From Tribonema minus (taxonomy: Eukaryota; Sar; Xanthophyceae; Tribonematales; Tribonemataceae), in assembly GCA_017506865.1 (NCBI GenBank), contig JAFCMP010000532.1, positions 434,001-498,000 on the forward strand: a stretch of DNA of 64,000 nucleotides, written 5' to 3'. The position numbers and the translations under genes are program-made. This document shows, piece after piece, positions 33,633 through 58,600 of the stretch; within the stretch, counting starts at the first letter, position 1, and each line of letters opens with the position of its first letter. A model generated the notes under the pieces. It worked only from the letters and a program-made list of their open reading frames with translations, did not search any database and had not been told where the DNA came from.

Positions 33633-36600
33633 ATGCCTACCCTGCCCCACCCCATCACAGCGCTCCACGCACGCGGCGGTGGCCAGAGGTACGGTGCGGA
33701 CAAGAAGACACCTGCGCAGCGCAGGCGCGAGAGGCGCCGCAGGGCGGCTGCCCTTGGGCGCCCCCCTGTGACTCTCCCCGCCGACTTCCTCCAGGCCATC
33801 CACGACTTCACGTCCCAGGACTACAACGGTGCGTGACTCTCGCAATGCGCGTGCATGTATGATGTTGCCGATGGTACTCAGCTGTTCGTGACTGGGAGAC
33901 TCATGTCGTGACCGCCCCCACTGTCAACACACGCAGAAAAGTCAGTAGCGCTGTGCACAGCAATTATGGCACAGCCCGTATGGCACGGGTAATGACACTT
34001 TTGTCTTGCACGCCCAACTCATCTGTACCGCATGCCTCGTCCCTTGTTGCCACGAACAGCAGACATTGGCAGCACGGACAGCGCGCGCACGCGCGGCAGC
34101 ATCCGCATGACGCGCAAGAGGATCGCCAGCCTCAAGCGCCTCAAGAGGAGGGCCAAGGCCAGGAGGGCCGCAGAGCGGCTGCGCGTCCCTCGCCACCAGC
34201 GCAACGCAGCGGATGCTCAGCGCAACTCGACGCCACCTCAGCCAGCGACGACAACCGGCGGACTCAGCTACCGTGCAATGAAGCATGCCGACTGCAGGCT
34301 CAGGAAGACCCTGGCCAAGCCGCAGCGCCGCTCCGCTCGCCCTACCGCGCCGACCCGCAGACCTGTTGTGATAGCGCCGACAGCTTCGAGAGTTGCTGTG
34401 CAGCAGCCGCTAATCCCCTCAGCTCACTCAACGATGGCGGCGGCACCGACCCCTCCTGGCCCCATAGCAGCACCCACCACACCGGCGCCATTCGCAGCGA
34501 CGCCAACCGCAGCGGCACCGGCAGCTATGCGCACACGCACGTCAACTTCAACGACACCTTCAACTTCAACACCGCGTGCCATCTCAACGCGCCGCCTGGC
34601 CGACAGCACGCGCGCACAGGACGCCGCCCCATTCGCGACAGTGCCGGACAACGCAGCTTCGATCATCCGCGCCCTGGCAATGGCTCTTCGCGACGCCCCT
34701 GCGAACCTCCCCCCAATACCGACCGACCCAGCACCCCAGCCAGCTGCCCCTACGCGCACTCGTAACGCCGCCTCCTCTGCAACGGCGCCGGTGAATGCAG
34801 CAGCGCTCATCCGCGCCCTCGCGCTTCTCTCCGAGTCCAACGCTGCTGCAAAACGTACCACCATACCTACCGCCCCAACGCCCCAGCCCGCTGCGCCCCA
34901 GCGCACTCCTCGCCACGCCGCCCATTCCGCAGCGGAGATGCCAGTGCGCACCGCATCGGACGACAACGCGCACGCACTTGTCCCCAAGCCCGACGCCGCT
35001 GTGGAGCGTACAACAACACCTACCGACTCGACACCCCACCCGGCACCTCAACGCACTCGCCACAGCACCCCCTCTGCAGCAGAGATGCCAGCGCGCACTG
35101 CATCTGACGACAACGCACTTGAACTGCCCACTCACAGCGCTGCTGCGAAGTGTAGCACAATACCTACCGACCCAGCGCCCCAGCCGGCACCTCAACACAC
35201 TGGTCTCGTCGCCCCTTCCGCAACGGAGATGCCACCGCGCACTACATCTGATGACAACGCGCATGCACGTATCCCCGAGCCCGATGCCGCTGCGGAGCGT
35301 ACCACGACACCCACCAACCCAACACCCCAGCCCGCTGCGCCCCAGTGCACTCCTCACCATGTCGCCCCCTCCGCAACCGAGATGCCAGCGCGCACTGCAT
35401 CGGACGTCAATGTGCTCGCAGTTCCGTCTCAGCCCGACGTTGCTGTGAAGCACACCACCATACCTACCGACGACCCGGCGCCCCAGCCAGCACCTCAGCA
35501 CACTCACCACGGCTCCCCTTCCATGACGGAGATGCCAGCACGCACCACATCTGCCGTCAACGAGCTCGACCTTCTCCCTGACCCCGATGCTATAGCTACC
35601 GCGGAAAGCTCCCCGTCGGCATTCGACGATGCAACGGCAGCGCTCTGCACCCTGTGGATCCTGGGCCGGTGCTGGACGCCGCAGACCTCCGCACTGTGGC
35701 AGCGCTTCGCGGCTCAGCAGCGGTTTCTCGCGACCGTCGCGCGCGGACGGCAGCTGCGGCTTCTAGAGAGCGTCGCGCGCAGACGGCAGCAGCAGCAGCC
35801 GCCGCTGGCGATCGAAGCAGCGGCGCCGCTCAACGACCCTCTCTACCGCCACGACCGCTACCTCGCCGGGCTGCGCGCGCGCGGCCTGACGGTGTTCAAG
35901 ATCAAAGGCGACGGCAACTGCCTGTTTGGCGCTGTCAGCCACCAGGTGTACGGGACGCCGGTGCACCACGATATTGTCCGCAACGCCTGCGTCAGCTACA
36001 TGCAAGAGAACGAGGAGAGGTTTGCGGCGTTTGAGGATGGGAGTGGCGGGTTTGTCGCGCGCGCCACGCTCATGCGACAGGTGAGCGCTGCCACGTGCAG
36101 TGAGTCAGGCTTTGCTGTGATCGGCAACTTGAAGTATGTGGCGCATTGGGCAAGGGACATCCTCGGTTACTTGTTGGAATATGAGTGTATATAATGTGCC
36201 CTAAGGTTGGCGGGTTTTAGGGGATGGCGAGTTTGTGGCGTCTGCCACTCATGCCGCGATGTACATGATGGAACCCTGGCCATCTGTACGCTTGGGGAGG
36301 TCATAGTGATCTTGACTGGCACTTTGTCGCTGCATCCAATGGCTCCTTTGATGTGCAAGTCAGCCTAAAGGCCCACTGGAAACCGTGTTGCGCTGACCTT
36401 GCGAAGCTACATTCTTGACAAGCATTTAAGCCCAGTATTTAATTGCTTTTCTTCATGACTGCTTGATACCACATCATTCTCCACTCACTTACACACGCGG
36501 CAGCTTCAAGCCATATTGCACACGCAGCAGCTCTGCGCGCCGCAGGCGCTGTCGAGCGCTGCTGTCACCCTCCTGTGCCCACATTCAGCAGCACGTACTA

Positions 36601-36965
36601 ACACCCCCCCCACCCCCCTCTGTTACCCCCCCTATGCGCTCGGTCGTCATCAGAACGGCGTCTGGGGCGACAACATGGAGCTCCAGGCGCTGTGCGACAT
36701 GTACGAGTGCCGAGCGGAGGTGTGGGTCTCCGACCCCGTGGACGGCGCGAGCATCAACCTCACCTTCCAGGAGGACGCCACCGCCGCCAGGGCCCTACGC
36801 GTGAGCTTCTACAGCGGCAACCACTACGACAGCGTGGTGCCGTGCGTGGGTCCTCCTGTCGCGCTGTACCCCGGCTGCGAGCCGGGCAAGGTGGAGATGC
36901 TGGCCATCTCGCGCCTCACCGCGCGCAGGGAGGCGGCGGCGGCAGCAGGTGGGGAGGCGTGCTGA
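33633..36965 (+). CDS. OTU-family cysteine deubiquitinase (OTUD5-like)
   Basis: Three exons: 33633-33828, 34063-36080 and 36654-36965 (841 residues). The N terminus is Arg/Lys-rich (KKTPAQRRRERRRR; KRIASLKRLKRRAKARRAAE). A long Pro/Thr/Ala-rich linker holds five repeats. The OTU domain sits at the C terminus: FKIKGDGNCLFGAVSHQVYG carries the catalytic Asp and Cys (Cys about 685), then HHDIVRNACVSYMQENEERF, then across the intron NGVWGDNMELQALCDMYECR, and finally YSGNHYDSVV with the catalytic His (about 795). OTU proteases remove ubiquitin, often K48/K63 chains. This spacing and the WGDN..LQA block most resemble OTUD5 and its plant relatives. All catalytic positions are present, so it is probably active. 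The ATG at 33633 is in frame just before a usable acceptor at 33660, so an upstream exon cannot be excluded. The last exon also holds a phase-1 GTGGGG donor at 36949, 14 bases before the stop (see findings). Confidence 0.8.
34800..35600 (+). repeat. Five in-frame linker repeats in the OTU protein
   Basis: The codons for EMP(A/V/P)RT(A/T)SD recur at about 34935, 35082, 35226, 35379 and 35529, spacing 144-153 bases. Each sits in a unit of about 49 residues also carrying P(Q/H)PAPQ.T and P(D/S)A followed by TTIPT or TTTPT. The repeats are Pro/Thr/Ala-rich and probably disordered. Confidence 0.75.
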
Positions 36966-37622
36966 AGTTGAAGTTGGTAATGGCGGTTGAAGTTTCTTGT
37001 GCGGCGGTTGAGGCGCGCGCGCACGTGTTTTTCGCGTGTTGAAGTAGCGAGGTGGAGGCGATTGAGCGCGGGCGGCTGCGGCTGCCTGGTAAGAACCGTC
37101 TGCTGTAGGTTAGGAAGTATGTACAATTGTGTGCCTTATGCTGGGCCCTACAGGCATCTCTCGAGCGGTGGCATTCAGCGAGTATGTGTTGATGCAGTAG
37201 TAAGTACCGGCACCACACCATACACTCATATCGTGTGTGCACTGCCGTGCTACATGAATCGCGTTCGTTGCATGCATGTTGAAGTTGTGGCGCTGAGCAG
37301 TGCCGTGCCGCATGAAGTTATGCATAGGCACCGGTTTTCCATATCTGCCAGGTGCCTGCATACAGTGGTGCACGGCAGCCCTCGCGACAATCTGCGCATC
37401 TCGGTAAGCTCAGCTGACTTACACTTGAACTTGCACTCTCAAAATGCGGCTGATGATCTCCGGTACCTCTCGAATTTGGAGAGTGCACGTCAAAATATTT
37501 GTGCACTTCGAAGTAGATGAGTTCGCTGCCTCGCTTCTCCTCCACTTGATCATTCAACGTCAGGTGCGGTACTGACTGCACCCTGCTTTTGTGCTCCGTG
37601 TCTCGTGCGTGCGCCCCTGCAG
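36966..37622. other. Gap between OTU and triple-RecA1 genes
   Basis: No clear first exon of the downstream gene is found here. The stretch is rich in GAAGTTG/CAACTTC words. A GTAAGT donor at about 37201 and a GTAAGC at about 37403 exist, but no ATG gives the phase-1 end needed by the exon at 37623. By size (657 bases) it would fit a normal intron. Confidence 0.4.
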
Positions 37623-40600
37623 AAGGCGGTGCCCCTGCTGCCCCTGACGTCAACATTCCTGACGCCAACATTCCTGTCATCAGCGCTCAGGAGCACCATG
37701 CGTCTGAACCACCAGCACCCGCGCCCCTCGACGCGTCAGCAAACTTCAACTTCAACTCAAGCCCCGCAGCAGACGTGCCAGCAACAGCGGCGTCACCGGC
37801 AGCAGCGCCTGCAACGCCCCCCACCGTTGCTGCGGCGGCGCCGGAGCAGCAGGAGCCATCGGCCAGCTACGACCCGTCAGCAACAGATGGTGAGCTTGCG
37901 GCGGCATCAGAAAGCGATGCGTCATCTGCGGCGGCTGATGACGACACGGGCTCAGCGGCGGCGGTGCCTGATTGTGATGAGATCGCCTCGGCTACATTGG
38001 CAACAGCGGAGGACGTCGAGGCAGCGGAGACGCCAGCTGACGATAGGGCAGCACCGGCGCCAGAGGTGGCGGCTGTGGGAGCAGAGGAGGAGCGCAGAGA
38101 CGCCACGGCAGCAGCGACTTCCGCGCAGCCAACTAGCGAGGCGGCAGATGCAGCAGTTGAGCTTGGCCCAGCGGCGGCCGCGGCGGCGTCAGTTGGCGCA
38201 AAGGCTTCCGCGCAGGCGGGCGAGATTGCGGCACCAGATGTTGAAGAGGCCTGTCCAGCGGAGCAAGGCGAGATGGCGGCGGCGGAGCCAGGCCTGTCTG
38301 ACTCTGCGCCTGCGGCGATTGATGACGCGGAGACAGTGGAAGTTGACAAAGGCAAGACAGATAATCAAGGCGAGGTGGCGGCAACAACAACTGCAGCGGC
38401 GGCGGCGGCGGCGACGACGACGATGGCCGGGGAGAGTGAGTCAGTAGAGCAAGAGGACGTGACAGCGGCGGCGGGCGCGGCAGCGGCAGCTGCAGCTGCG
38501 GCGGTGGTGGAGCAGGGTGACGCGGCGGCGGCGGCGGGCGCGGCAGCGGCAGCGGCAGCTGCGGCGGTGATGGAGCAGGGTGACACGGCAGCGCCAACTA
38601 GCGATGGTATGGCTGCGGCGTCGGCTACTGCTGACGCTGCTGTGGTGGTAGCAGCGCCAGCGGCGGCAACACCAGCAGCTCATGTTGTCGCGGCGGCGGC
38701 GGAAGCGGCCCCAGCAGCGCATGATGGGTCGACGTCAGACAATCAGTGCGCGGCAGCGGCGGCAGCAGCAGCTGCAGCCATCAACTTCCTGGCGGCGGCG
38801 GCAGCTACCAGAGACGCGGCAGCAGCAGCGTCAAGCGAGGCCGGGACGACGCCAGCACTGGACCCTGCTGACTGCGCCCGTGACCCTGCGCTCGACTCCA
38901 AGGCGGCAGCGCAGGCAGCGAGCGACGCACCGCGCATGCGGTACACGCTGCGCGTGAACAGTCCGTGGTGGCGCGTTGCGGCCAGTAAACGGCTGGAGCA
39001 CCTTGACGTCGCCAAGCGGCTGCCGTCGCGGTGCGAGCGCGACTTGACGTGGCATGCCGAGTGCGAGCACTTCAACACGCTGTTGAAGTCGCGGAACATG
39101 CTCGACCGCACGCACCCAAGCCTGTGGAAGTTCCATCACGGGTACGTCCCCTGTTGGAGCACCGCATTGCGCTGGCACCATGATTGAGGTCTTTTGGAAG
39201 CTATTTGATGTGACAGAACTGACAGGATGCATACAGTATGTCCATTGCATGTTTGACCTTGCCTTGTCGCTCTGGTGATAGCACACCTCTTAGCTGAATG
39301 ATCGCGATCATAGTTCGCCTTCTGCAACTGCGTGTTGTGAGCACGCTCTGCCAATAGTCGCAAATATGACGCCGGCTTCACCGCATTGACTCCATGCATG
39401 TACCCCCTCTGTATCTCTCACCGCTGTGTGTTGTGTGCGCTGACCTCAACTTTAACTTCAATGCGCCGCCGCTGCGCAGCTTCGAAGCCGGCGCCGCCTG
39501 CATGGTCCTGCAACATCCCAACAAGCACATCGTCAAGCGCGACGACCCCACCTCCGTCCGTGACGTCATGGCGGTGTGCGCGGCAGTGCTGCACGAATTC
39601 GATCCCTCCCGGCGCCCGTGGTCCAGGAAGTTTGAGCCCCAGGTCGTGGTGCTGACGACGCAACTGCTGGCGCCCGGTCTCAAGGCCGCGCTGCTGTCCG
39701 TCATGCTGGAGGACTTGCACAATGTGGTGAGTCTTCTTCAATGGAAACGAAGCAGAAGATCGTAGAGCTCTAGGTGAAAAATGATGGTTAGCCGCAAGTG
39801 CCTTCCACCAATAACCGTGGTCGCCGCTGCTGCAGTCATTGGCCACGAGTCAAACAGTGCCATCACATCCACAGGTCAAAAGACTTCTGTGTGTGAGCTT
39901 TTTAGCGTTCGAGGGCAGGGATGTTCAGTATGGAAAGGTCTCACGTGTTCGGTAGGCCAGCTCAATATTGCAGTTGGCTCGGTCGGCAGGAGAGGTGGTG
40001 TGTGCAGGATTAGGAGTACTGAAAGCGATCGGTGCCTGCGTGTTCAATGCCCAGCCTGATGGTGGTGGTGCTCGCAGTGCAGTACCCTGGGGAGTGCATC
40101 TTTGTCAAATGGTGGTGAAGCGCGAGCATTGCAGCATTTACTAAAGCCACCACCGGGTTTTCACAATGCATGCGTTGGAAGGCAACAGCACCATCACAGC
40201 TGCATGGTCCTGCCCCATTCACGGCACTCGTGCATGTGACAGTGCTCCCCCATGCGTCAGCTCCATGCTTTCAGCGCCGACAAGGGGCTTTCTTATGCTC
40301 ACGCTGACCAAGCGAGCGCTACAGTGTCATAGGACAAAGTTCACATCTTGACAAGTTAAAGTAGAGATGTGCCGTTGCCGCTACATTCAGCAGACTGGGC
40401 GCTGACAAACGGTTCACGCGCCTGTGCTCTCTCTTGCAGGTAGACATTATGCATTACCGCGATCTGTGCAACGCCAAGGCTTCAACCAAGATCCTCATCA
40501 CGACGCCCCACGTGGTGAGTACGCTAGCAGCACCATTGATCCGCTGCAGCAGCGGTGCACGAACATGATCACACTGCTTGCATGCCCTGCCTTTCACATG

Positions 40601-43600
40601 ATAGTGAGGGCGCGCTTGACATTGGTCATGCAGGTACTCGGTGCAAAGCTGCGGTAAGCACGGTATCGACATCAGTGCTCCGCTGCTGCAGCCGTGCACG
40701 CATATGATCACACCGCATACATGCCCTGCGTCACGCGTGGTAAAAGCGTGTCAGGCTTGACATAGTCATGCAGGTGCTTAATGTCGTGCATGGCGCTGCC
40801 TGCTGCCCTATGTGCTGCTGGTGTGAGCGGCAGCTGATTGGCTATGACTTGGTCCTAGTTTCCTACGCAATGCGCATATGGGAAAGCAGCATCAACACGA
40901 TGAATCTGGAGGCACCACAACCTAGTGGTGTGCTGGTCTGGTTGCTGGCAATGATGTACACACATTACGCTACATTTGCTTTTACGTTACGAAAAAAAAT
41001 GCCGGTCGAGTGCACAACGGCTCTCTCACATACATCTCAAAAGCGTACTGCCTGTCTGAGGATTCCACTGACTGGCGTGGATCCTGCTCAATTGCTGTGA
41101 TGCACTCACTACTGTGCTGCTGCCTCACAGTGGCAGCTGAGTGGTACCAGTCCTGCACTGGGCATACACATGCAGGCCCTGCCGCATGGCGTAACTTCAT
41201 CTGTAGCAGCAAGCACTGCACGATTTATGTGCTGCGCCATGTCAGCCGCAATTGCTCGCTGTGCACAGGTCCAGACATGCACCAGGCCTGGCTGCTCTGG
41301 ACAGTTTCTATCGTGCTTACATACCACCAAGTGTGTTGGGGAACTGCTGCTAACCCTACTAACCCTACTAGTTTGTCTCCTGCGGCGCTGACTCTCACGC
41401 ACGGTGACATCTTCTGCTCATGTTGTCGCGCATCTCACCGATTGGCTGACTGCCCCTGTGCACGTGCGCCCTTCGTACTGCTCTCTCGCAGCTGACACAG
41501 CTGCTGATCAACTTCTACCACGAAGGCGCATTCTCGTACATCAGCGCCCTGGTGATTCACGCGGCCGACCATTTGGAGGCCATGCCGTTCGACCTCCACC
41601 GCCACCTCTGCTGGCGGATTCGAAGGCCCATCGATATGTATGATGCCAGCGGGTACAGGCGCATCGGCTCGGAGTTCGCCTTCGCCAAGCGCGTCGTGCT
41701 GTCGTACTGCGTGCCTGACGACGACAAGTTCCGCGCTCACGTGCGCGTGCGCGACTTCATCGACGCCGTGGTCACCGTCAAGGACCATCCCAATTTGCCG
41801 GAGAAGGACGTCGACCTGACGCAGAAGCTCGTCGTGGTGTGCGACGAGGACGCGGTGAGTCACTGACTTGAAGTTAGTGGTCAACTTGCAGTTTGTAGTA
41901 CGGTTTGTGCATCGTCCGCTGACAAGTGCTCTTGACAGACGGGGCATTTGCGCGGGGCGTGAGCTTACTTCAAGTAGTATAACTTGAAGTTGTGTACGTG
42001 GTCAATCCTGCCCACACAACAACGGCGTCACAGCTTTCCTGTCCACTGCCCTTATGTGATTTGGGGGGGGGGGGGCATCACTATCACTGACTCACGTGGG
42101 ACTAGGATTTGAGGTTAGCGTTGGGGTCTGACTAGGGTTGACTTTGACACTGAGGCGTTGACACTCACAGTTGGAGTCCTGTGCTGCACCGGGCTGAGAT
42201 GCGATTGACCTAGAGGTAGCCTTCGCATTGCCTCAGGGCTAGAGCTAAATCTACATGAGAGTTGAGTCAAACTGCAAAAGCACTAAGTGATGATTCGGGG
42301 TTTGAAGTTTGGGTTGGTCAATTGCTTTGTTGTTCAAATCGCCAATGTCGCTCTATCTACAGTGGAGTGCGTCTCCATCAGACTGCTATGCTGCTCGCAC
42401 GCGCCAGTGTTGCTACTGCTCGCGCTCCATATCACCACAGCGCGGATGCCTTGTTTCCCAAGAAGCAGCACCAGCAGATGTAGCTACCAGGTAGCACACC
42501 AGCATCGTCTCACTGCACTCATCATTCAGCTCCACAGGCTGTGGTAACTCCAGAGTCTGGCCTGCGCGCTCTTCAGGCACCGCCCTCATGCTTGCACACG
42601 TCACCAGTAACTAAGTAGTAACGATGCTCACCACTCACCGCCGCCCCCCCCCCCCCCCCCCTCCCCCCTGACCAATCGCTGCCCCCCTCGCCGCCGCCCC
42701 GCCCCCCCCCCCCCTCCTTCTCAGGCGCAAACCGCCGCAATGTCTGCAGCATTAGCACGAGCCGCCGCCGCCGCTGACGACGATGCCGCCGACCGCGACG
42801 CTTGCGAGGACTTTGGCCGCGTGCGCCTCGAGGCGAGCGCGCTGTCGGACTCTGCCAAGGTCTGCAGGTGCGACGACGCTCACGCGCGCGCATGCGAGGG
42901 CGTGGTCGCCATGCTGGAGTCGCTCTACAGGGCCGTGTGCTTGCGCGGCGACGTGGCGTCGCCGGCGTACGACGCGTACCGCGTGGACCCGCGCTTCAGC
43001 CGCGGCTTCAAGGACTTCATGGCGGACGCGCACAACCACTGGCGCTGGGGCACCTTCCGCATGGCGCCGGCGCCCAACAGGAAGCTCGGCCACAACACGG
43101 CACCCGCCTGGGATGTGGACCTGCTGAGGGGGGTTGAAGATGCGGCAGCGCTCGGCCGGACAATGCAGCGCTACGTGGGCATCGACGTGGATGGCATCCA
43201 CAGCGCGCTGAACATACGGTGCGTGTGCGGTATGTGTGGTTGGCCCATCTCTGGTGGCTGCAAGCTGCTGCTGCTGCCGGTTTTTGTGCAGTGGTCGGTG
43301 GTGTGGTGTTTACGCTGCGTGGTTCAAATGTCATTGTGGCTTAGCTCCATGTTAGGGCTGGCTGCAACTTCAATAGTGACGGTGCTGACAGTGCTGCGCA
43401 GCTGAAGCTTATAGGTAGTATGCAAACAACATGAGGCTTGCTGGGGTGCTATGCTACGCAGTTTCTTGTGGTTTGCCTCGCCATGCATGAAGTTGCAGCT
43501 CACTGTTGCCCTCAAGCAATCTCGTCACTCACCACGTTCTCATCCCTCTGCTCACTCTGGGACTGCTGCAGCCATCTCGCTGACTCCGACTGCGACCAAC

Positions 43601-46600
43601 ACTGTCCCAGCTGTTCACAAGATGCAGACTCATTGCTGAACGCTCTCCCCGCTGTTTTGCGCAGGCGCGACTTCACGCTCGCGTGGTTGGCCGAGCAGAC
43701 CCGGCTGCAGGAGAATCTGGTGATACTGGGCGGAGACGCCGCCGTTGCGGCCGCAGCCGTCTGCACGGAGCTCATCGACAACAGCGACAGCGCGTCGCCA
43801 GTGCAGCACATCATACTGGTGGGATCGGTGGAACTAGCTAAGCAGCTGGCGGCTGAGCTGCTGACGCCGCTGTCCGGTGATCGATTTCCGCTCAAGGTGC
43901 GTAATGACAGTTACGACAGTTACATTTGTTGATCAATCGTGAAGCCCAGTGTGTTTACTGTCGTGGGAGCCGTTGCGGTGCTGGCTGCTAGCCCTGTATC
44001 GCGTGCGTTGTGCTGCATGCTGCAACCCCAGAGACAGTACAGCATGCCGGTATGTGAGGCCATAGCATGTGCGCGCGCGCTCGGAGTTGAAGTTGAGCCA
44101 CGCTAGCCGAACCAGCTACACGCACGCAACCTTGTGATGCCGCACCAGTTTGCGAAAGCACGCCGTTGCCGCGTGAAGTTCCTCAATCCTCAAGTTCAAC
44201 CTATACTTACAGTTTCAAATCACAAAGGGGTTCATGGACATGGAAGTGAGTAGTAGCAGCAGCGCTCGGCAGTAGTAGTGGCTGCGTCTGTCTTGTGCCA
44301 CTGCACAATCTTTGGGGTCTGTCCATGGACCACTCCTGCAGATTGGCGCACAGCACAAGTGCCTTGCTCGACCTCATTGTCTTCTACTTGCATGTTTTGT
44401 GCGTCTCTCACTGTTTCAGTCCCTCAACAAAACATCACTCGACCCTGCATAAACCCTGCATGATCAAACAGACATCCAACAATCTTACCATGCGCACTCC
44501 TGTCTGTGCCAACTGCTTTGCAGGTTGGAGTCGTGGATGCTATTTGCTACGATGAACTGGCCTTGGCCAATGACGTGCTGGCTTTCAAGTTTCACATCCT
44601 TGTGGGCACGCCCGAGCAGGTATGCAAACACTACATGAGCCTCGGCGATGGTGTTCTGTCAGCGCTGCTCGTGGATCTACGCTGCGCGTGCGCTGTGCTA
44701 GTAGACTTCAATGCGCCACTACCCTTGGCGTACACAGGGAGCGAAGCATTGCAACAATATTTCACATGCCTGATGCGAAGGTCAACATCGTGCGCACACA
44801 TTTTTATCGGCCCGGAGTTCGATGATTGACTGGCAACATACGATTTGAAAAGCTCCCTTCCGCCCGAGCAACTCTCAAATGCACATGCCCTCGGCATCAA
44901 GGGAGCAGCTGGCTGCGGTCGCGTGACACTGCAACTGGTGTATCCGCTCATGATTAATGAAAAATGAATCAAAAGATTGTAGAGCTCTAGGTGACAAGGG
45001 ATGGTTAGCCGCAAGTGCCTTCCACCAATAACCGTGGTCGCCGCTGCTGCAGCCATTTGCCACGAGTCAAACAGTGCCACCATGAATAATCTAATTGAAC
45101 TCTCTGGCCTTGAATCCTGAATGTGCAGACGTACGAGTGCGTGCGCCGTGGGTACCTGAGCACTGATGCCTGGTCCCTCGTGCTACTTGGAGTGGACACC
45201 TGGGAGCTCCTGCCGTCCTTCCAACACCGCGTCGCCTGCTGCCTGGCGCTACGTGACTGGTTGCAGTGAGTGGATGGGCAACGACTGAGACTCGAGTGCT
45301 GTGAAGCTCATGGATGAGAGTATCAGCCTGACCTCTGGCTGTTTTGAAGTTGAAGTTGAAGTACAACGGCAGGTGCCAGTTCCGCACCACCAGTTTACGC
45401 CCAAGCACCGCAATGGAATTCGATTATGGTCTGTCCCGTGCTGGTCCAGCCTGTCAATGAGGAAGTCCACGTGCGTATATCAGAGTTGCGATGAGACCAG
45501 AGTTGCAATTTGATCTGCGTACGGTTGAAGTTCACCAAAGTAATTCAAGAATGGCTTGTGCCGTTGAGGCTGGAACATGGATGAGAGTCAGGGTCAGCGT
45601 CAATCCTTGTCAGATGTATGCATCTACTTCTATATGCCAAATGGGAAAGAGGCAACGTCATACACATGCATCACTCGCGCATACGTGTTGCCGATGACAT
45701 GGCTGATGTGCATGCTTCCTGCACACCCTTGCCTGCACGCCGCAGCCCAAAACACTTTCGAACGGTTATCACCGCTCAGAAGCCTTCTGCCGATGTCCGC
45801 GAGTTCATCTACAAGATGACGCCAGGGCCCCAGGCAACCCTCTTCCTGGACTGCCAGGAGGAGCGGAATGTGAGTCATGGTGCACTTGTTAGCGGGGGCT
45901 GCATCAAATGTCCTAAGGGGGGGGGGGGGGGGGGGGGGAGCTTACAAGTTGCATTTCGGGAGCAGGCCTTGCAGGTTTCTTGGTGGCGTTATCATCGCGT
46001 GTTTTGAGACCAGCAAGTGAGTTCTTTCCACAGTGCTCGTCGTAAGATCGCCAGCTTGCACGTCAGATGTGATTTTGTGCCACACACCGCTCTAGCGCAC
46101 TTAGGGCTGGTGCCTCGCTGCTGTCCTGCGGCATCTCACTCGTTGCGCACGACAGGCCTGTAGCCGATTCCCAGTGTCACCGCTCGACAACTGGTCAAGC
46201 CCAAGCTTCTCTATCTAAGTTTGTGTCGGTATGCGCGAGACAGCACACAAATCAACAAGAACAAAGGCACCGTGGCGCTCCGCCCGTTGCGCAGACATCA
46301 CCTCACCGTATGTATGCCTTGCACTGCGCGCCATGCTCGCAGGCCGCGCCGCGAGCGGACGTGGAGGTGCTGAGCGTACCGCTGCGTGGGCGCCGCCTCA
46401 ACGCAGCAGACTTCAACTGTGGTAACGGCACTTTGGTGACGTTCCCTAACGAGACTGAGTACTTGCACGAACCCCAGCTGCTCGACATGTGCACCGACCG
46501 TCAGTGGGATGTGCCGACCAGGTGCGTTGCTTTTAAAAACACACACACACAGAAACAGTGCCTTTCTGGGATGCTTATTTGATGTGCGTTCAGGGGGCTG

Positions 46601-49600
46601 CGGTAGGGTGCGAGCATAGTCTGCGGAGTGGAGTGCCGCAACTCGTAGCAGCACATCAAGCAAGTGACGCTCCTCACTCAGTCTCGCGCACCAGATATAC
46701 ACCGCATCGCGCGATGTGACAGAGTGTGCACCTGCACCGCCAATGCAAGGCAGCTGCAAACAGGTACACAGCAGCACAGGTCAAGCGGCACGTCGATCTT
46801 TCGTGTGGGCTGCATTGATCTGAGAGTAGACTCTGAGGACGAGCGTGGGAGACTGTGTATGCGCAAGTTCATACTTCTTTTGAGCAAGTTGATTGATTAT
46901 CATGAATGAATGCGTGCAACTGGCGAGTGCCCCAAACAGCCATATCTACCTTTCGCAGGATCACGACTGTGTCTGTCGCTCGCATCTATGGCCTCCACTG
47001 TAGCGCCTACACAATACACATGCTCCACCGCTCCCTCAACCTCAACTTTAAACCTCCACTCCAAACCTCAACTTCAAACCTCAACTTCAAACCTCAACTT
47101 CATGAAGTTCAAGAATGAAATTTAATGAACCTCAACTATTGACACCGCTCTTCACTCGCACAGGTGTGAGGCGACGGCACTGCGTGCCGTGCTGGGACGA
47201 TTCAACATTGATCCCATGCCGTACGACGGCGACAGGCTGGCCTCCGTAGTGCTCGTCCACGATGACCCCGCCGTGTGCGCGCGCCCCCTCTGCGCTGCCG
47301 CGCTGCACACGGCAAGAATGGGTCTTGGGGACGGGTGGAAGATGACGCATTGCCAGGCGTACACGCCGCAGGTTGTCGTGCTGGCGCACAGGGACTTGTG
47401 CGCCGACTTTGCGTTCGCGCTGCTTCCGCGGTTTTCGCCGGAGTGGCAGACCAAGGTGAGAGTTGCTGCGGGTGTGATAAGGGGGTGGCGACGTCATTTG
47501 GCGCAACTGTGACGGACTTGCTGCGCACGTCGTTCATGGCCAACCGCAAATGCACATAGTGTTGCGGTTTAAACTGCGACAGGCGGTGGTGGTCTCGTGG
47601 TAGGTGCATTGGCCTGCACGAGTACACCAACTTGAAGTTTACAGCTGGCGCACAACGCACAGGCTCGATGGATGTGTGATGAAGCTGTGTTCCGCTGTGG
47701 TCACCAGCTCTCTCATGCCTGCATTGACGGTTTCCAGTACCCATTTTGCCAGGGTCAACGCTGGCACAACTTCAAATTGAGACTTTCTGTTGTCGGTCAA
47801 GTGTATTGTGGTTCTCAATGCAAATTTATTGCTGTTGCCCCGTTGGGGCCTGCCAGGTTGAGGCAGCATCGGAGCGGGCCGAGTGCACCACATATGGTTT
47901 CTTCATGTCATTGACGCCCAGCGTCTTGCTCGCCACACCGCTCGAGGTCAGTGCCACCATGCTCAGCCGAACTACGGTTGCAGCTGCTCGTTGAAGTAGT
48001 TGAAGTGTGGGCTGAGCTGTGTGACGTGCATTTCGATGCCACCCTTTCAACTGCCACTTACTGTGGTTCAGTCACTTGATCGTGTAGCGCGGCGGTGTTT
48101 GACCTTGGATTGCGTGCTGTTCGGTGCATTGCTTTCATGATGGAACAATGCCGGCGCTTGTTGGAAGTGGGATCAGCAGGTGGTCATGAGGTTTGCAGCG
48201 TTTTGGCGCTGCTATGCGCGCGTATCACGCAATCAAGAGCATGCATCGATAGTGCAAAGCGTTGACAGCGCGTGTGTGCGTGCTTTTCTGCTGCAGTGTG
48301 TGCATGTAGGGTTTGGGTCAGGGTTAGGGTTAGGTCACCTCCAGCGCCCCTTCTACCCTGCTCACTCCCCTGCGCGCTGCATGTGTCTGTGTTGAACGCG
48401 TGCAGGCCTTGAAGCACTTGCAGGCGCGCAGGAGTCCCTTTATGCACACCGTAGTGCTTCATGGCGTCGACAGAATCGTTGAGGCAGGGCTCAGCCAAGC
48501 ATGTGCTGACGTCATTCAGATTATACGGTGAGAGTCGGTGGCAAGCGCTTGCAGTCCAGTCCTCAGGGCACAGCGACCAGAGATGCGTGTTGAGTACCAT
48601 TGTGAAGTGTAATTGTAAACTTGAAGATGTGATGTAGGTCATTCCCCCCCCCCCCCCCCCCCCCCCCCCAACCCACACACACACAGTGTGTTCTCGTCAG
48701 GTGCTGCGCGCCGCTGTTTGAAGCTGCAGCAGAACATCACATTGTGACGAGCTTCTCATGTGCGCACTGTACTACTCGTACCTGCTGGCATTTGATGAGC
48801 GCTGTTGTGCACATAGAGGAGAATAAACTCAAACAGAAGTACCATATATGATGGCGATTAAGACCCCCCCGTCTAGCACTTTTGGGGCTGAATGCGTCGC
48901 ATAATGCTAGGGGAGCCCGTCTTATACCATGTACCCCCCGGCTTCGCATCTACGGCACGACGAGATGCGTCTCATGCGCTGGGTCATGGGCATTAAGCCG
49001 GGGCCCAACACGCAAGGCACCAAAGGTTTACGCCAGACGATGGCTAATTCAAGTTGTGGCAGAAAAACGACAGAACTGATCCGTCTGTGCACGCTAACGC
49101 ATGGAGTGCGCGAATGTTCTCCTGCGGTTTGCTCTTCATTCTTACTGTTCATACTGCAAGCCTGCACAGTCGATGTACAGCAGTGACATATACAGTGCAA
49201 GAAGCCCGCGCATATCGTGAGCAGTAGCAGTGCCACCTCCATGATGCCTCTCGCTATGCCTCTCTCTGACCCAGACTGCACACCCCACAAAAACTTTCAG
49301 AAACTTTGAACTTCAACGGTTACTTGAAGTAGAACCTCGATGCACACAGACAGATATGGGTGTATCGAGGACCTAGTCGAGGTGCCTGGACTTAAATTGC
49401 AATGCCACTCAGCTTGTTTTCGCATGAAACATGGTCCACGGGCGTCTCACTCGGTTTGAGTGAGGCTTGATGGGCACTGTGCGCATGTTTACACATGGGG
49501 GGGGGGGGGTCTTATTCCATGTACCCCCCGTCTAAGCGTTTGTTTCCTTCCCAATGCCTTTGACATGGCCTTTAACCCCTCCCTTCCCTTAATCACCGTC

Positions 49601-52600
49601 CCCTACCCTAAACCATGTGGGGGTCTTAATCGCCATCATATACGGTACAGACGCCACGCCATGTGCCGCCCTCTCAACAAGTCCTCAGCTCTCCTCATGC
49701 GTATTCAATCACCGGACGTTTTTTTCCCTTGCATTGCAGACGTTCGGCGGCAAAGACCCTGGGCCTGCGGCTGCTGTCCTCGTGCAGCACTGTGACGGCA
49801 GACGTGGCCAGCTTCATAGACGTCCAGGTTCCAACCAAGGCGCGGATCGTCGTCTGCGACCAGGCCAATGACGCGGTGAGTTGCTCGTTCAGTAGTGTGG
49901 CGATGTACGCCAAAGTACTTTTGAAGTATGACTGCGTGCATCGGCCTGTAGTTGGCGCCGCCACTTACTCACTCACTTTGACGAATCGCTGAACCCAAGT
50001 CGCACGAATCGAGGCTCGCACTGCAGAGCGGTGGAAGTGCGACGAATATCACTGCCCCACGGGGATGATGTGTGCTACCTAAAGGCCTGTGCATCTGAAA
50101 GCAGTGGTGAACACGTACGCATCCAGGCTAGGGTTAGGGTTAGCATGAGATTTCAGGGGTTGGAGCATCAGTAGTACCTGCTAGGGTTAGGGTTGTGCGC
50201 GTGCGGCTTAGTAGGATTAGGGTTAGGGTCGGGGAGCGCGGATTAGGTTTAGGTTAGGGGGTTAGGGTTAGGTTAGGGGTAGGGGTAGGGGCATCAGGGT
50301 GAGGGTTAGGGTTGGGGATCAGGGTTAGGGTTGAGGGCAGGGGTTAGGGGTTAGGGTTTGGATTAGGGTTAGAGTTAGGGTTGCGCAAGTAGGGTTAGGT
50401 CAGAAATTGGGTTAGGGTCAGGGGCATCAAGGTGAGGGGTAGGATTAGGGTTAGCGGTTAGGGCCAGAATTAGGTTAGGGCTAGGGCTAGCATTGGGGAT
50501 TAGGGTTGAGAGTAGGGTTAGGGCTGGGGCTTTGGGTAAGGGTAGGGTTAGGGTTAGATTGCTGCAATTTTAGACAGAAGAGCGTGTTGGTTGCAAGCTG
50601 ACATGTCTGCTGCGTGTCTGTCGCTGTTGTTTGTGTCCTGCAGGATGTCGATGAGCCCGAGCCGGAGGAAGGGCCTGCCCCCTGCAAGCCTTCGCCTGCG
50701 CTTCCCAGCAAGGCCAACACGGCGCGCCACTGCGCTGATGCTTGTGCTGCCCCCAGCCACACCATTGAGGACGCCAAGGCTCAGGCTGACACTGGCAAGC
50801 TGCCTCAGGTAATTGCCTTGGCATTGAGAAATGGCTTGCGTGCGTGCAGAGTTGCTGCAGCTGAGTACCTACTGTGGTATAACGCAGTGAGAATCGGTTC
50901 AGCTGCTCTGCAGGGGAGTGGCATGTTGACTTATGCATGCGCGTTGGGGTTAGGATTAGGGTTAGGGTTAGGGTTAGCAAGGCAAATGGTGCATGTTCCT
51001 GACAGGTACTTTGGCATGCTTGAACTACATGGAGAAGATTCATGATCATGCATGCAGTGATGGTGAGCAACAGTGGCTGCTGTTGAACTGGTTGCTCAGT
51101 CCCCGGCGCGATGTGAACTGGGGACTGATTTTTTAAGAGAGGACATTAAACCATATGAACTTTTAGGCATAAACTGCAAGTAATATCATTGTTATGGCCA
51201 GCAATCAATAACATAATGAAGCAGAAGTAGCTTGAAGTCACTTTTGTGTTGCGCGCAGGGTCTTCGCCTGAATCACACATTGAACTTTGACTTCAGCATC
51301 ATCTTCAAATTTGAAGTTGGTGCAAGTTCAGTTGTGAACCTGCTGTGTGCTTATCGGCTAATCTTAAACGTCTTGAACACCGGTGCGTCACTTCTTGACC
51401 TCAACATCATGCTGGAATGCAGCAGCGTACGCCGGCGGGGTTCATACAGATTGGCCAAAGTGGTTCACCTTCCAAACAGCTGGGTCGTTTTCTTGTTGCG
51501 GTTCAGGTCCGGTACCTTGCGTTCCAATACGATGCGATCCGTTTGTATGACCTTTCCGCGACACTCATCCGCAAGCATACTTTTGCTGCCGCCTTGAAGC
51601 AGGAGGGCAAGGACGAGATCGACAACCAGCAGCCTGCCCCCTGCCACGCCATTCCGTGCCAAGCACCTACAATGATTGTGAGACAGCGCGAGCGCGCGCC
51701 TGTTCCAAAGGCACCTGCACCTGTGGAACAGTCGGCTGAAACAACTGCGAGCCAGTGTTCTCCGCCTGTGCCACCCGCGATGGACGTGGGTCAGCACAAA
51801 CCGGTCGTGGCTGCTGCAGAGCTCGCACACCAGCAGGAGCAGCAGGCAGTGTCGCCTGCATCGGCTACGGAACCTGCCAGCAATGTCGCTCAGGTGGCAA
51901 CAGTTGCACCGGCACCTGCACAGGCTGGTCAGCAGGCGGATGCGGAGGTCGTTCAGCAAACGCCTTCTCCGGGTCAGTGCAGCCCCCCCACACCACCTGC
52001 AGAGGAAGTGGGTCAGCACGAGCCAGCAACACCTTCTGTCGAGCTCACGCACACGGAGGCAGTGGTAGTGGCTGCGGAACCTGCAGGCAACGTTGCTCAT
52101 ATGACACCTGAACGCGCCTTCACACCAGCTGCCACAGTGCCGGAGACCACAAAGCTGGAGCCAGTGACACTGGAGTCCGCGGCAGAGATATCTCAGCGTC
52201 GCTCGACGGCTGATATTGCCGCCATTGATGGCACGTCAGCAGGTGATGATGCTCAGGTGCAGGACGCTCTCGCCGCGACTGCTCCGCGTGCTCCCAGCAG
52301 CACTGCTCAGCCGGCCAGCACCATGCCGACTGCAGCAGCGGACGATACCGACACCAGCAGCGCAACCGGCATTGTGCCACTGGGCGATGCAGCCGGCGCA
52401 GAGGCAGCGCCAGAGACGGCAACAGCACCGGCGCCAGTGGCGGCGGCAATGCCCGCAGCAGCAGCGCCCAGCGACGGGCAGCAGCAGGTGCGCAGAGAGC
52501 GGCGTTGGTCGTTTGATGACATTGCCGTCGTGGATGAGCAACTGGACGCCTTCGCGCCGCCGGACGACGCAGCGACACTCGACGCCAGCGACGATATCGA

Positions 52601-55600
52601 GTTGGACCTGCTGATGGCCCTCATGGATCTCGGCGTCGACTTAATGTCGACTGACACCGACTCTAGCGCGCCGCTTTGCGTTGACAACACGGCAACGCCT
52701 CACGTGAGCGACAAAGCGGCGACGTCGGGTCGGAGCGATGCTGCCACTGGCAACGCTCAGCTGCCTGTACTACCGCTGCTCGAGGCTCTTCCTTCCTGGG
52801 ACAGCCAGGGCGAAGACTGGTCGGGCCTGCAGCTGCCAACAGACAGCACCGGCGTTGGCTCCTTCACGGCAATGCTTGCTGATGCCTCAGCGGCGTCGAC
52901 TCCTGAGGAGACTGGCTTTGCGGGCGCTGCGGCAGCTGCATCGCAGCACTCTTGTCAGGTGCGTGCCGTGACGCGCTCGAATACATACTTGCATGTGCTC
53001 AGAGCAAGTTCGACTTTGACTGCATCCACAGTGCTCAACGTGCCTCTGTACATAGAAGTATAGTTCAGAGCACGTCTGTCACATCGTATCCGGCACTGTG
53101 CTCTCTGCATCCAGGCATTGCTTCACGGCATCTCACAATGTGCGAGCACCTTGTTGCTTTGACATACTTCGCAAAGTATCATGCTCAGGAACAAGGGATA
53201 AAGCCATATACAGCGCTATGGACAATACCAGTGCACTCGCTCACACAAATATAGCCCCCCCCCCCCCCCCCCCCCCCCCCCCTGCTCTGTTGAAAATTAC
53301 ATCTATACCTGGCTGTTGCATCAGCACATTACGGCTGACCGGTGCACCTCAACTCACAGCGCTTTTGGCTCCGCTGCACTGTCTGCCTTCCATGCTTTCT
53401 GCACACGCAATGCACGACGCTCAATGTGGTACATGATGTGCAGAGCGCTGTCGTGCTGCGTAGAGCCTCACTGCGCTAATCAGCTCACAATTCACTTGAG
53501 CATTTACCATCCCAAGAAACTCAGCGCTCTTTCCTTTCGATGCATCTATGTTCTTGCTCATGCAGGCCTCGACAGACAACACGCTACCTCTGCAAGCCGC
53601 CGCAGCGCCTGCCGCGGAAACTTCAACGGCCACTGACACGAAATCGCCGGCCTTCGTGGTGGCGGCACCGGAGTCTGCGTCGACAACATGCATCATCTGC
53701 AGCGGCCCTGGCTCCATCCCTGCTGGAGCTGGTGTTGGCGCACCACTGCACGATACCACACCTGCGCCAGCTGCTGTGCCGGCTCCCCTAATTCCCTCTG
53801 CAACGGTGGGCGAGGCTGCTGGCGTACTTGCAGTACCTGCTGGAGCGCTGGCGCTGCACGCGACGCCTTCCGCCCCGCTCCCCTCCACTGCTCAGCCTAC
53901 TTCAGCGGCACTGCCGATTGGCGCAGCAGTTAAGCGACCTACGGCAATGCCCAGCAAGGGCGCCAGCGGCACCGCGGCGGCAGTAGGCAACGCGGCAGCA
54001 CTGGCTGGTCGCAAAATTCTGAAACCCAAGAGGCCAGGTGCACGTGCCGCAAAGAAGCAGCTGACCGCTGCGGCACCATCTACCACACAGTATGTGCCTG
54101 CACTAGCCAGCGGGTCACTGTCAGCCGTCGCAGCGACAACCACCGGCACAACGACAGGAGGAGTGTCGCAGCCAGTAGCGGTGCCAGCGGTGGCAGGTTT
54201 GCAAGGCCCAGCATTCATGCTCGGCGGTGCCATGGACAGCTGCAGCGCTCGTCAGCCTGCAGCGCCTGCGGCATTCGGCGAGACGTCAGCTGCAAATGCG
54301 GCTTCTTCAACATCACCAGAGGGTTTCCTTGCGCTTCTTGCTGGTACAGCGGCCGCGCGCCCTGCAGCAGCGAACGCATGTGATGGCGCGCCAGCAAGTG
54401 ATGACGGTCAGGCACAGGACGATCTCGTCGCTAGTGTTCCGCGTGACTCCAGCAGCACTGCTCAGCCGCGCAGCATCGCGCCGGCTGCGGCAGTGGACGG
54501 CAGCGACGCCAGCAGCACAGCCGGCGCTGTGCCACCGGGCGATGCAGCGGATGCAGAGGCAGCACCAGCGACAGCGGCGGTGGCGGCAGTACCAGAAGCA
54601 GCAGCGCCCAGTGACGGCCAGCAGCAGATTCGCAGAGAACGGCGCGGGTCGTTCGACGCAATCGCCGTTGTAGATGAGCAACTGGATTCCATCGCACCGC
54701 CGGACAACGCAGCAAGCCTCGGCGACAGCAGCGAGTTGGACGCGCTGCTGTTTGCCCTCTTAGACATGGGCGTCGACATGCTGCCCACCAACACCGACCC
54801 GAACGCGCCGCCTTGCGTTGACAACACGGCAACGCCTCATGTTAGCGACGATGCGGCAGCCTTTAGTCGGAGCGATGCTGCCGCTGGCAACGCTCAGCTG
54901 CCTGTACTACCGCTGCTCGAGGCTCTTCCGTCGTGGGACAGCCAGGGCGAAGACTGGTCGGGCCTGCAGCTGCTAACAGACAGCACCGGCATTGGCTCCT
55001 TCACGGCAATGCTTGCTGATGCCTCAGCGGCGTCGACTCCTGAGGAGCCTGGCTTTGCGGGCGCTGCGGCAGCTGCACCGCAGCCCTCTTGTCAGGTGCG
55101 TACTGTGAAGCGCTGTGATACGTTATAGAAGTATGTGAATAAGCTCGACTTTTTAAAAGTATTACCACAGTGCTCAACATGCCTCTGTAGGTAGAACTAT
55201 AGTATAGCTCACAAGTGTCACATCAGCGCTTTGTACAATGCCAGTGCTTTGCGCTCGCACAAATGTATCCCCCCCCGTCCCCCCCCCCCCCCCCCCCCTC
55301 ATGTTTTTCTGTTAGATATTCATTTATGCCTGGCCATTGCGTCAGCACATCATCCTTGACCGGTACATTTCAACTCGCAGAGCTTTCGGCTGCGCCTGCA
55401 CTGTCTGCCTTCCACACGTTGTGCACACACACACCACAACGCTAAACCTGATACATTGTGCGCAGAGCACTTTTGTCCATTTTTAGAGCCTTGGCGCAGA
55501 GCACTTTTGTCCATTGTTAGAGCCTTGCTGCGCTGATCAGCTCACAACTCACTGACGCATGACCATGCCAATAAACTCAACGCTCTTTCCTGCGGTGCAT

Positions 55601-58600
55601 CTCTGTTCTTGCTGATTCAGGCCACTACGGACATCACGCCAACAGTGCAAGCCGCCCCTGTGCCTGCTGCGGAAACCTCAACGGCCACTGACGCGCAATC
55701 GCCGGCCTTGGTGGCGCCGGCACCGGGGTCTGCATCGACAACATGCATCATCTGCAGCGGCCCTGGCTCCCTCCAAGCTGGCGCTGGTATTAGCGCGCCG
55801 CTGCACAACACTGCAGCTGCGCCAGCTGCTGTGTCGGCTCCCCGTAATTTCCTCTGCAACGGTGGGCGAGGCTGCTGGCGTACTTGCAGTGCCTGCTGGA
55901 GCGCTGGCGCTGCACGCGACGCCTTCCGCCCCGCTCCCGTCCACTGCTCAGCCTACTTCGGCGGCACTGCCGATCGGCACAGCAGGTAAGCGACCTACGG
56001 CAATGCCCAGCAAGGGCGCCGGCGGCACCGCGGCGGCAGTAGGCAACGCGGCAGCACTGGCTGGTCGCAAGATTCTGAAATCCAAGAGGCCAGGTGCTCG
56101 TGCTGCAAATAAGAAGCTGACACCTGCTGCACCATCAGCTCCCACCGCGTCTGCAACTGATGCTGCTACCTACCAGTATGTGCCTGCGCTAGCCAGCGGG
56201 TCACAGTCAGCCGTCGCAGCGTCTGCAACGCCTACTGCTGCCACTACCTACCAGTATGTGCCTGCGCTAGCCGGTGGGTGGCAGTCAGCCGTTGCATCGA
56301 CAGCCAGCGGCACGACGACAGCAGGACCGTCACACCCGGTAGTGGTGCCGGCGCTGGCAGAATCGCAACGCCCAGCATTCGTGATCGGCGGCGCCATGGA
56401 CAGCAGCAGCGCTCATCAGCCCGCAGCGCCTGCGGCATTCTGCGAGACGTCAGCTGCACATGCGGCTTCTTCAACATCACCAGGGGGGTTCCTTGCACTG
56501 CTCGCTGGCACAGCGGCCGCGCAATCTCCAGCAACTACTGACATGGACATTGACGCGGTGATGGGACTGCCCGACGCAACTGGCGCAGTGGCGACTGAGC
56601 AACCGACGAAGCAGCAGCAGGCAGCTTGTGCTGAGCCATCAGCTGGCATGGTATTGGAGGCCCACACGCTGCTGCCGTCAATTACTGGCACCCCTCAGGC
56701 GAATGATTCTGGTATGGTCATTGACAGCATCACACCGCCACTGGCATCAACCTCCCCTCCTGCACCTGCAGGCACGCTGAACGGCTGGGTCGCCGTTCCA
56801 CAGCAGCCTCCGCAGCAGCTTATCTACAATGCACCACCACTAGCTTCAGCCTCGCCCGCTGCAGATGCGGCAGCGCCGAACGGATGGGTGTCCGCTCCGC
56901 AGCAGCCGCCGCTGCAACAGGGATCCCTCGCCGGAACGCCGTCCTTTGCGAGGACAACCATCAAGCCCAGGAGGCCTCGAGCATCCTCAGCTGCGGCAGC
57001 AACAGCGCCCACGACAGCACCGCTTCCTGCTCCTCCACTGACTTCCGGCTCGCCCGCTGCAGTTGCGGCAGCGCCAAACGGATGGGTATCCGTTCCGCAG
57101 CAGCCGCCGCCGCACCAGGGTTCCTTCGCCGGAACGCCGTCTTGTGCCAGAAAGATAATCAAGCCGAGGAGGCCTCGAGCATCGGCAACTGCGGCAGCAA
57201 CAGCGCCTGCAGCAGCACCGCTTCCTGCACCTCCACTGGCGTCGGGCTCGCCCGCTGCAGTTGCGGCAGCGCCAAACGGATGGGTATCCGTTCCGCAGCA
57301 GCCGCCGCCGCAGCAAGGTTCCGCCGCTGCAATGCCGTCCTTCAGCATGACGTTGATCAAGCCCAGAAGGCCTTGAGCGTCTGCGACAGCGGCAGCAACA
57401 GCGCCCGCGGCAGCACCGCTTCCTGCTCCGGCACCGGTTCTCGCGGCTGCGCCACGTCCCGCACCTGTGCCACAGCCTGCCGCACCTCCACTGTCTGCAC
57501 CAGCGCCTGCACCAGTGCCCAGCGCTCAAAGCCCCCTTGGCAGGTATGAAATCACGACGTTGTAGTACACTTTGGTATAGGAAATCAAGTGCAACAGCTG
57601 GACATGCGCTCTCTGTAAAATTTGTACTGTACAAACCCCGCCATCATCACCCACCCTGCATCACCATGCCCTCCTTGCAGGCGCTGCCACGTAATGTGAC
57701 ATCCGCCCATAGATGGTGGGCACTCTGTCACCTTGTCAACACCGTAGAATTGTCAGCGGCAGCACAAGTAAATAACGGCGTTAAGTTCTTAATTGTACTT
57801 GTGTTTTTCTCTTTGTCAAGCAGGAGTTGTCCGCTCCGCGTCGTGCTCATGAGCAGCGCGCCCGATGAGAGCGGCATTGACCAGGAGCTGGAGAATCCAG
57901 CGGTTCTTGTGCCAGAGGTTCAACAAGACGAAAAGGTGAGCTGAGCAAGAAGACGTGCTGGAGGGGTGATTTTGAGTTATGCAACGAGCTGGTTGTTCTG
58001 ACTAGTTGTGTACGTACATTGACAAAATAGCAGTCGCAGGTGTTGCCTGCGTCAAGAATTCGCTGCTGGTGGCAGATGGGCAGACAACTTGTAGTATATC
58101 AGAAGTATGGACTGACCTACGTACACATTTGTGAGGCGCATCAAGGTAGCCAACTGATAGTCAGTCGTGTACTGCCAAAAGGCATGGAGGAGCTCGACAA
58201 AGCAGTCTCGCTGCTGCTTTTCATTTTTGAAATGCTGGTATTTTGTATGCTGTCGTTCTATATGCTGGCGCGTGCACAAACTGCTTCAAAACCAGCATTC
58301 AGCTGCGACTGCCTCGGCTCAAAGACCTCTGTTTCAGTAGCATCTGTGACTTTGTGCAGTGATACTTGCACGCCCCCCTGCGTGCTGTCTAATGATGCGC
58401 ACGCAAAAGAGTCTTCCCCAGCATGCGTGCCGATGAAGCCTCTGCGGTGATCGATGCACTTCAACTGTGACGTGTCATTGCACTTCAACTGAGACATCCT
58501 TGCTGCCCTCCCTACCTTTTCAGGAAATGCCAACGCCGCCCGCGCCGACCTCACCATCCTCTGGGAACCCCCGCAAGCGCGCTAACAATGGCGCGCAGGG

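Follow-up and report, generated by a model that had tools for sequence, protein, structure and literature searches.

What remains of a DEAD-box helicase when only its first RecA-like lobe is kept, and is kept three times? This question is raised by a stretch of 64,000 nucleotides (nt) from the xanthophyte Tribonema minus (assembly GCA_017506865.1, contig JAFCMP010000532.1, positions 434,001 to 498,000 of the forward strand), referred to here as the window, within which all coordinates are given unless another contig is named. The plus strand of the window carries a long intron-rich gene that is real and unusual, and its anatomy indicates that its product is probably a pseudo-helicase in which three DEAD-box RecA1 lobes, named units A, B and C, follow one another in tandem. 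A protein of this kind had been proposed in an earlier note on this DNA, and the analyses below bear on each part of that proposal.

Three RecA1-like units in one exon chain

The gene model (plus strand, 38,891-52,958) comprises 16 exons, with CAG at all 15 internal acceptors and GT at all 16 donors, and the joined frame of 1,485 codons contains no stop. The placing of all three units in one open exon chain supports the earlier note. The position 38,891 is an arbitrary model start and both gene ends are unfixed; the total length, previously put at about 3,170 residues, is not established. The G + C content at third codon positions (GC3) of the used frame ranges from 0.62 to 0.88, compared with a G + C content of 0.47-0.57 in the introns, which is a coding signal, and in 11 of the 16 exons this frame has the highest GC3 of the three. 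The chain begins with the 3' part of exon A0 (38,891-39,141), in which an Ala-rich tail is followed by MRYTLRVNSPWWRVAASKRL and a phase-2 donor; the A0 frame extends upstream without a stop to 37,550, and a CAG lies at 37,620-37,622. Unit A follows in exons A1, A2 and A3 (39,480-39,726, 40,440-40,514 and 41,492-41,854), the linker exon B0 of about 164 residues occupies 42,725-43,218, and unit B consists of exons B1 to B4 (43,665-43,896, 44,524-44,619, 45,129-45,265 and 45,746-45,869). A second linker exon, C0, of about 59 residues (46,343-46,521) precedes unit C, which is made up of exons C1 to C4 (47,164-47,455, 47,857-47,946, 48,406-48,527 and 49,740-49,875), and exon D1 (50,644-50,808) continues the chain 3' of unit C.

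Each unit reads as a degenerate RecA1 lobe with its motifs in the order Ia, Ib, II and III: TTQLLA, TTPHV, VIHAAD and VLSYC in unit A (39,480-41,854), VGSVELAKQL, VGTPEQ, LVLLGVD and VITAQ in unit B (43,665-45,869), and AHRDLCADF, LATPLE, VVLHGVD and LLSSC in unit C (47,164-49,875). The common order of elements, the absence of a P-loop and the TP motifs ITTPHV, VGTPEQ and LATPLE had all been claimed before, and all three claims stand: none of the units carries the GKT of motif I (Walker A, GxGKT), and the TP of motif Ib is kept in three of three, while the G and R of TPGR are kept in none. The hydrophobic core strands are retained in all copies. In motif II the strands are LVI-HAAD (A), LVL-LGVD (B) and VVL-HGVD (C), from which the catalytic D-E is gone. 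The last D of DEAD may be kept in all three units, which for unit B needs a shift of one residue; a gapless phmmer alignment sets G-V on D-E in that unit and gives GVDT. HAAD and HGVD are also the earlier readings for A and C; GVDT, the earlier one for B, holds in the gapless alignment and is otherwise LGVD. Motif III is LSYC in A, ITAQ in B (strand RTVITAQKP) and LSSC in C, with S/T kept there; these strands include the SYC and SSC of the earlier note, but LDC, formerly given for unit B, has to be replaced by TAQ. The LDC strand is instead the end strand that matches VVVCDEDA in A and IVVCDQANDA in C.

With regard to the ancestry of the units, a profile built from the three of them retrieved 13 distinct sequences from the PDB at E<=10 (best E 0.001), and 13 of 13 were DEAD-box helicases, a label that we assume for some of them: DbpA, DeaD, MSS116 (five), CshA (two), SPB4, DDX47 and HAS1 (two). 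The same three sequences in reverse retrieved none. When the units were aligned by hhalign with five RecA1 lobes from true DEAD-box helicases of this genome, the probability was 43 and E 2.5e-4 over 118 columns, motifs Ia, Ib and II lying in register, compared with a probability of 0.06 and E 0.74 for the reversed control. Searched alone, unit B placed eIF4A-III rows on top (best E 0.05) among the best 60 of the 67 sequences that it matched at E<=10. Unit C gave four rows, headed by DbpA (E 0.0095) and then another RNA helicase (E 0.074), and the remaining two were cytochrome P450 at E >1. In pairwise comparisons of the three units with four true lobes, none of 1000 shuffles scored as well as the pair of B with L013, which is eIF4A-III-like by eye, or the pair of C with L014, and TP lay on TP in both. 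With the profile of the five true lobes, C and B scored above all 900 shuffles. In NCBIfam, DbpA was matched by one of the three units at E 0.0035 and CshA by one at E 0.056, and unit A had no match. The genome also has ordinary DEAD-box exons: at least 36 matches, each exceeding the cut-off, came from scoring 35 of 139 candidates. The C0 linker alone reached E 0.00085 with LIC10831, presumably a leucine-rich-repeat protein of Leptospira, and for this reason little weight can be put on any one E-value of about 1e-3; ancestry is argued from the consistency of the match list, the register and the controls. Taken together, the profile, hhalign, shuffle and NCBIfam results support the DEAD-box RecA1 ancestry suggested in the earlier note: homology is detected for the three units together, and descent from such a lobe appears well supported for the three lobes and moderately so for unit A.

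The second lobe of the helicase, RecA2, was sought in the linkers by Pfam, hhalign, shuffles and the PDB, and no signal was obtained, in a search run without a positive control. Against a two-sequence RecA2 alignment, hhalign gave E 0.15 over 12 columns for B0 and E 0.086 over 10 columns for C0; in the PDB, the best of the 8 rows for B0 was lysine-tRNA ligase (E 0.061), and LIC10831 was the best of the 5 rows for C0. The proposal that the two linkers are what is left of worn RecA2 lobes, prompted by a motif V-like KVCRCDDAHARACEGV seen by eye, was rejected on these null results. A RecA2 with motifs IV-VI was not found, and a very worn one could still be present; nor are there two complete RecA1-RecA2 cassettes of the Brr2 type, but three RecA1-like units. 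The claim of three RecA1 copies with no RecA2 agrees with these results, within the same limit on the search.

Triplication of a multi-exon unit and an intronless copy

The splice junctions provide a record of how the three units may have arisen. A junction lies exactly 12 nt past the T of TP, in phase 0, in three of three units, and if junctions were placed uniformly, the chance of B and C both falling at the exact junction base of A would be about 2e-5. Each unit is also preceded by a phase-2 junction and closed by a phase-0 junction, and a further phase-0 junction separates Ia from Ib, 63, 84 and 78 nt ahead of TP in A, B and C, respectively. A phase-2 junction ahead of motif III is common to B and C (149 and 134 nt past TP) and is absent from A. 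In a multiple alignment, the similarity of B and C to A is modest, at 26% and 29%, and in pairwise shuffling 5 of 1000 scored as well as A-B and 1 of 1000 as well as A-C. The common position and phases of the junctions thus indicate that one multi-exon unit was triplicated, and it is supported at the sequence level that a RecA1-derived unit of this kind became three units in one gene. A0, B0 and C0 as mutual repeats were ruled out, with 636, 901 and 466 of 1000 shuffles scoring as well.

A second line of evidence comes from the rest of the genome, a 158-Mb assembly of 554 contigs that is eukaryotic by its introns. When 142 residues of unit B were used as a query, a second place was found on contig 526, where the minus strand of locus L007 (G000:C526:145000-154900) carries, at 5957-7085, an intronless copy that was aligned with the joined exons. 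The two are identical in 711 of 1,023 columns (70%), with no intron, and the copy runs across five junctions: B1-B2, B2-B3, B3-B4, B4-C0 and C0-C1. Just before this main stretch, and in the same order, are short matches to A0 (coding-sequence positions 46-92) and B0 (1036-1099). Stop codons and numerous gaps of lengths not divisible by three mark the copy as a broken retrocopy. It is also, in its own right, evidence of retroposition in this genome.

An intronless copy with joined exons indicates that A0, B and C once sat on one spliced mRNA, for which the sequence evidence gives good support; it extends neither to unit A itself nor to junctions past C1. The earlier note had named separate, unrelated transcripts as the finding that would overturn its proposal, and the copy speaks against such a division for B1 to C1 and for A0, but does not cover unit A. 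Differences between gene and copy number 75/321, 76/323 and 104/322 at first, second and third codon positions, respectively, and third positions are in excess over the first two combined (104/322 compared with 151/644; Fisher p 0.004), as would be expected if the gene had stayed constrained after copying.

Competing explanations and a possible role

A number of results weigh against an array of three RecA1 lobes. Unit A alone is not significant: PF00270 was its sole Pfam family (E 0.19, 11.9 bits, cut-off 26), a Der1 row at E 0.63 was its only PDB match, and with the five-lobe profile it scored 2.3 bits and was beaten by 4 of 900 shuffles, these four coming from other units and its own 300 all scoring lower. 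Scanned together with its linker, neither unit B nor unit C matched a Pfam family at E<=5, and the 1,001-residue core matched none at E<=0.5. After the eIF4A-III rows, unit B gave ABL kinase rows from E 0.12, and an E-value of about 1e-3 occurs by chance, as the LIC10831 match illustrates, with no stretch passing. In the remaining 10 of 12 unit-lobe pairs, at least 17 of 1000 shuffles scored as well (A-L010 17, C-L010 40 and the other eight pairs at least 114), and in the reverse test, with a profile of the units, only 2 of the 5 true lobes scored above all 1000 shuffles. Direct pairwise similarity between B and C is absent, 513 of 1000 shuffles being as good. No relative was found in the protein database, with about 8,000 scored candidates per search and its algal coverage unchecked; among viral contigs, 57 stretches matched the pattern of the three-unit alignment and none was confirmed, and a phage tblastn with unit B likewise gave nothing. 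Structure prediction on single exons, with confidence expressed as the predicted local distance difference test (pLDDT), reached 44.5 for A3 and 54.3 for B0, and neither prediction gave a usable fold model; the model of B0 is all-helical, which is weak evidence. Finally, the GC3 of the used frame is tied in 1 of the 16 exons and is not the highest in 4, and it is well under the 0.955 of true DEAD-box exons in the same genome.

Some of these results could be accommodated by other explanations. If the units had another P-loop or Rossmann-type fold that merely resembles DEAD-box RecA1, then the lack of a significant match for unit A, of a Pfam family for B and C, and of a fold model would follow; however, such a fold is hard to reconcile with 13 of 13 profile matches falling in the DEAD-box family, with motifs Ia, Ib and II being in register, with clean reversed controls, and with DEAD-box helicases ranked first by B and by C separately, and we consider it the most improbable of the explanations. 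A decaying gene, that is, a triplicated helicase remnant drifting with no function, has only a small chance of being correct. The low similarity to any helicase, the lack of database relatives, the GC3 below that of true DEAD-box exons and an apparent frameshift, noted by eye, near 55,84x in the last of the tail repeats, relative to its duplicate at 53,785, would all suit decay, but 1,485 open codons over 16 exons with clean splice sites would not, nor would a GC3 above the intron G + C content and the third-position excess relative to the processed copy. It is similarly unlikely that B and C share a gene with their neighbours but not with unit A, the latter being encoded separately or removed by splicing. 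The intronless copy does lack unit A, but it contains A0, which lies upstream of A, adjoining B0; the edges of the gap fall inside exons A0 and B0, as in a deletion, and the copy has a second gap of the same sort, from within B0 to within B1. In addition, unit A shares the junction phases of the other units and is in frame with both A0 and B0.

The remaining alternative extends the three-lobe array rather than replacing it. Upstream on the plus strand, exons of an OTU-type cysteine protease (35,640-36,965; PF02338, E 1e-14) carry GDGNCLF and NHYDSV, which we take to be the active-site residues, and if they belonged to the same gene, the product would be a deubiquitinase for which the three pseudo-helicase lobes select the substrate or the complex. 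Besides the OTU domain with both motifs, such a fusion is favoured by the lack of a Met in roughly the first 215 residues of A0, and a weak donor GTGGGG (GT at 36,949-36,950), in the last OTU codons, is phase-compatible with the CAG at 37,620-37,622. TGTAA, which serves as the poly(A) signal in green algae, occurs twice on the plus strand compared with 11 times on the minus strand between 31,298 and 57,613, but it may not be the signal of this organism. Against the fusion, the OTU frame has its own TGA at 36,963-36,965, the required donor would be GTGGGG, and the comparison with the copy took in exons A0-D2 only. We therefore regard the fusion as possible but doubtful.

Returning to the array of RecA1 lobes, the closest known systems differ from it in informative ways. 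DEAD-box RNA helicases of superfamily 2 such as eIF4A-III and DbpA, the top matches of B and C, have the same RecA1 order Ia-Ib-II-III, whereas this gene has three RecA1 copies in a row with no P-loop, no catalytic D-E and no detectable RecA2. Utp25/Def is described as a pseudo-helicase with RecA-like domains 1 and 2 in which the DEAD-box motifs are dispensable (PMC9539457). Like the present protein, Utp25 is related to the DEAD-box family with most motifs gone, and it has a repetitive disordered N-terminal region (PMC9539457); unlike Utp25 with both lobes, the array would have RecA1 only, three times. The Utp25 family was absent from the Pfam scans of the units and the core, and the likeness consists of catalytic motifs that are gone by sequence, the fold side being represented by the two low-pLDDT single-exon predictions. 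Brr2 and ASCC3 are Ski2-like proteins with two tandem cassettes in one chain, of which, in Brr2, the N-terminal is active and the C-terminal inactive (PMC8220420), while here the lobes are DEAD-box-like, number three and have no P-loop. Literature searches on DEAD-box pseudo-helicases and on tandem or degenerate RecA domains, judged by titles and the beginnings of abstracts, turned up no RecA1-only array; Utp25 was the only DEAD-box pseudo-helicase among the papers they listed, an EcoP15I paper also using the word. The three-RecA1 arrangement was not seen in the database and literature searched.

The open-closed ATP cycle of DEAD-box proteins needs the P-loop, the catalytic residues and RecA2. 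As none of these was detected, an ATP-driven cycle of the DEAD-box type is not expected, which favours a fixed array of docking surfaces. The triplicated lobes would still fold but, having no P-loop and no RecA2 to close against, would be incapable of ATP binding and hydrolysis of the DEAD-box kind; flanked by long low-complexity tails, they might form a fixed row of surfaces that holds RNA or DEAD-box partner proteins together with no ATP cycle. Such a scaffold or decoy role, taken as a step by itself, is put forward tentatively and with somewhat less than even confidence, and it counts among the weaker points of the proposal. The composite picture, in which tandem triplication of an intron-bearing lobe produced a RecA1-only array that serves as an ATP-free ribonucleoprotein scaffold or partner sponge, possibly fused to a targeted OTU deubiquitinase, is rather unlikely to be right in every part. 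If the array is real, it would mean that a RecA1 lobe is able to exist by itself as a binding module and, as in other scaffolds built of repeats, to be multiplied. What such a lobe binds with neither ATP nor RecA2 could then be tested directly, and the common intron phases would be a clean record of the origin of the array.

Repeated and neighbouring sequences

The 3' end of the gene is formed by Pro/Ala/Thr-rich C-terminal exons, D2 (51,507-52,958) and D3 (53,566-55,095), the latter in frame with the model, which share duplicated stretches. Across the C-terminal tail (52,226-57,434), stretches that include intron sequence are duplicated about 2.1 kb apart, with ungapped pairs 76-94% alike, and three 198-nt repeats come next. 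Upstream, 153- and 291-nt tandem repeats (34,840-35,562) precede the OTU exons. On the minus strand, long open frames at 13,551-21,441 contain FG-like and YPPMSAKAPSVF repeats and appear nucleoporin-like by eye; two pieces of them were scanned, with no Pfam match at E<=0.01. An Rfam scan of the whole window gave no match.

The introns also contain repeats. A 121-nt element, 92% alike in its two occurrences and perhaps a small mobile element, is found in introns A1-A2 (39,745-39,865) and B2-B3 (44,962-45,082), and intron C3-C4 contains an apparent inverted-end element (48,845-49,640), 'atatgatggcgattaagaccccc' being found near 48,847 and, as its reverse complement, near 49,615, as seen by eye. 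Intron C4-D1 carries a degenerate TTAGGG array (50,130-50,557). A genome search for (TTTAGGG)x4, of a kind that may skip simple repeats, gave no match, and exact (TTAGGG)x5 has 2,303 + 3,123 occurrences genome-wide (overlaps counted), many of them, among the matches listed, inside contigs. TTAGGG arrays are found all through the genome, and contig 2 begins with about 450 bases of them, which is telomere-like.

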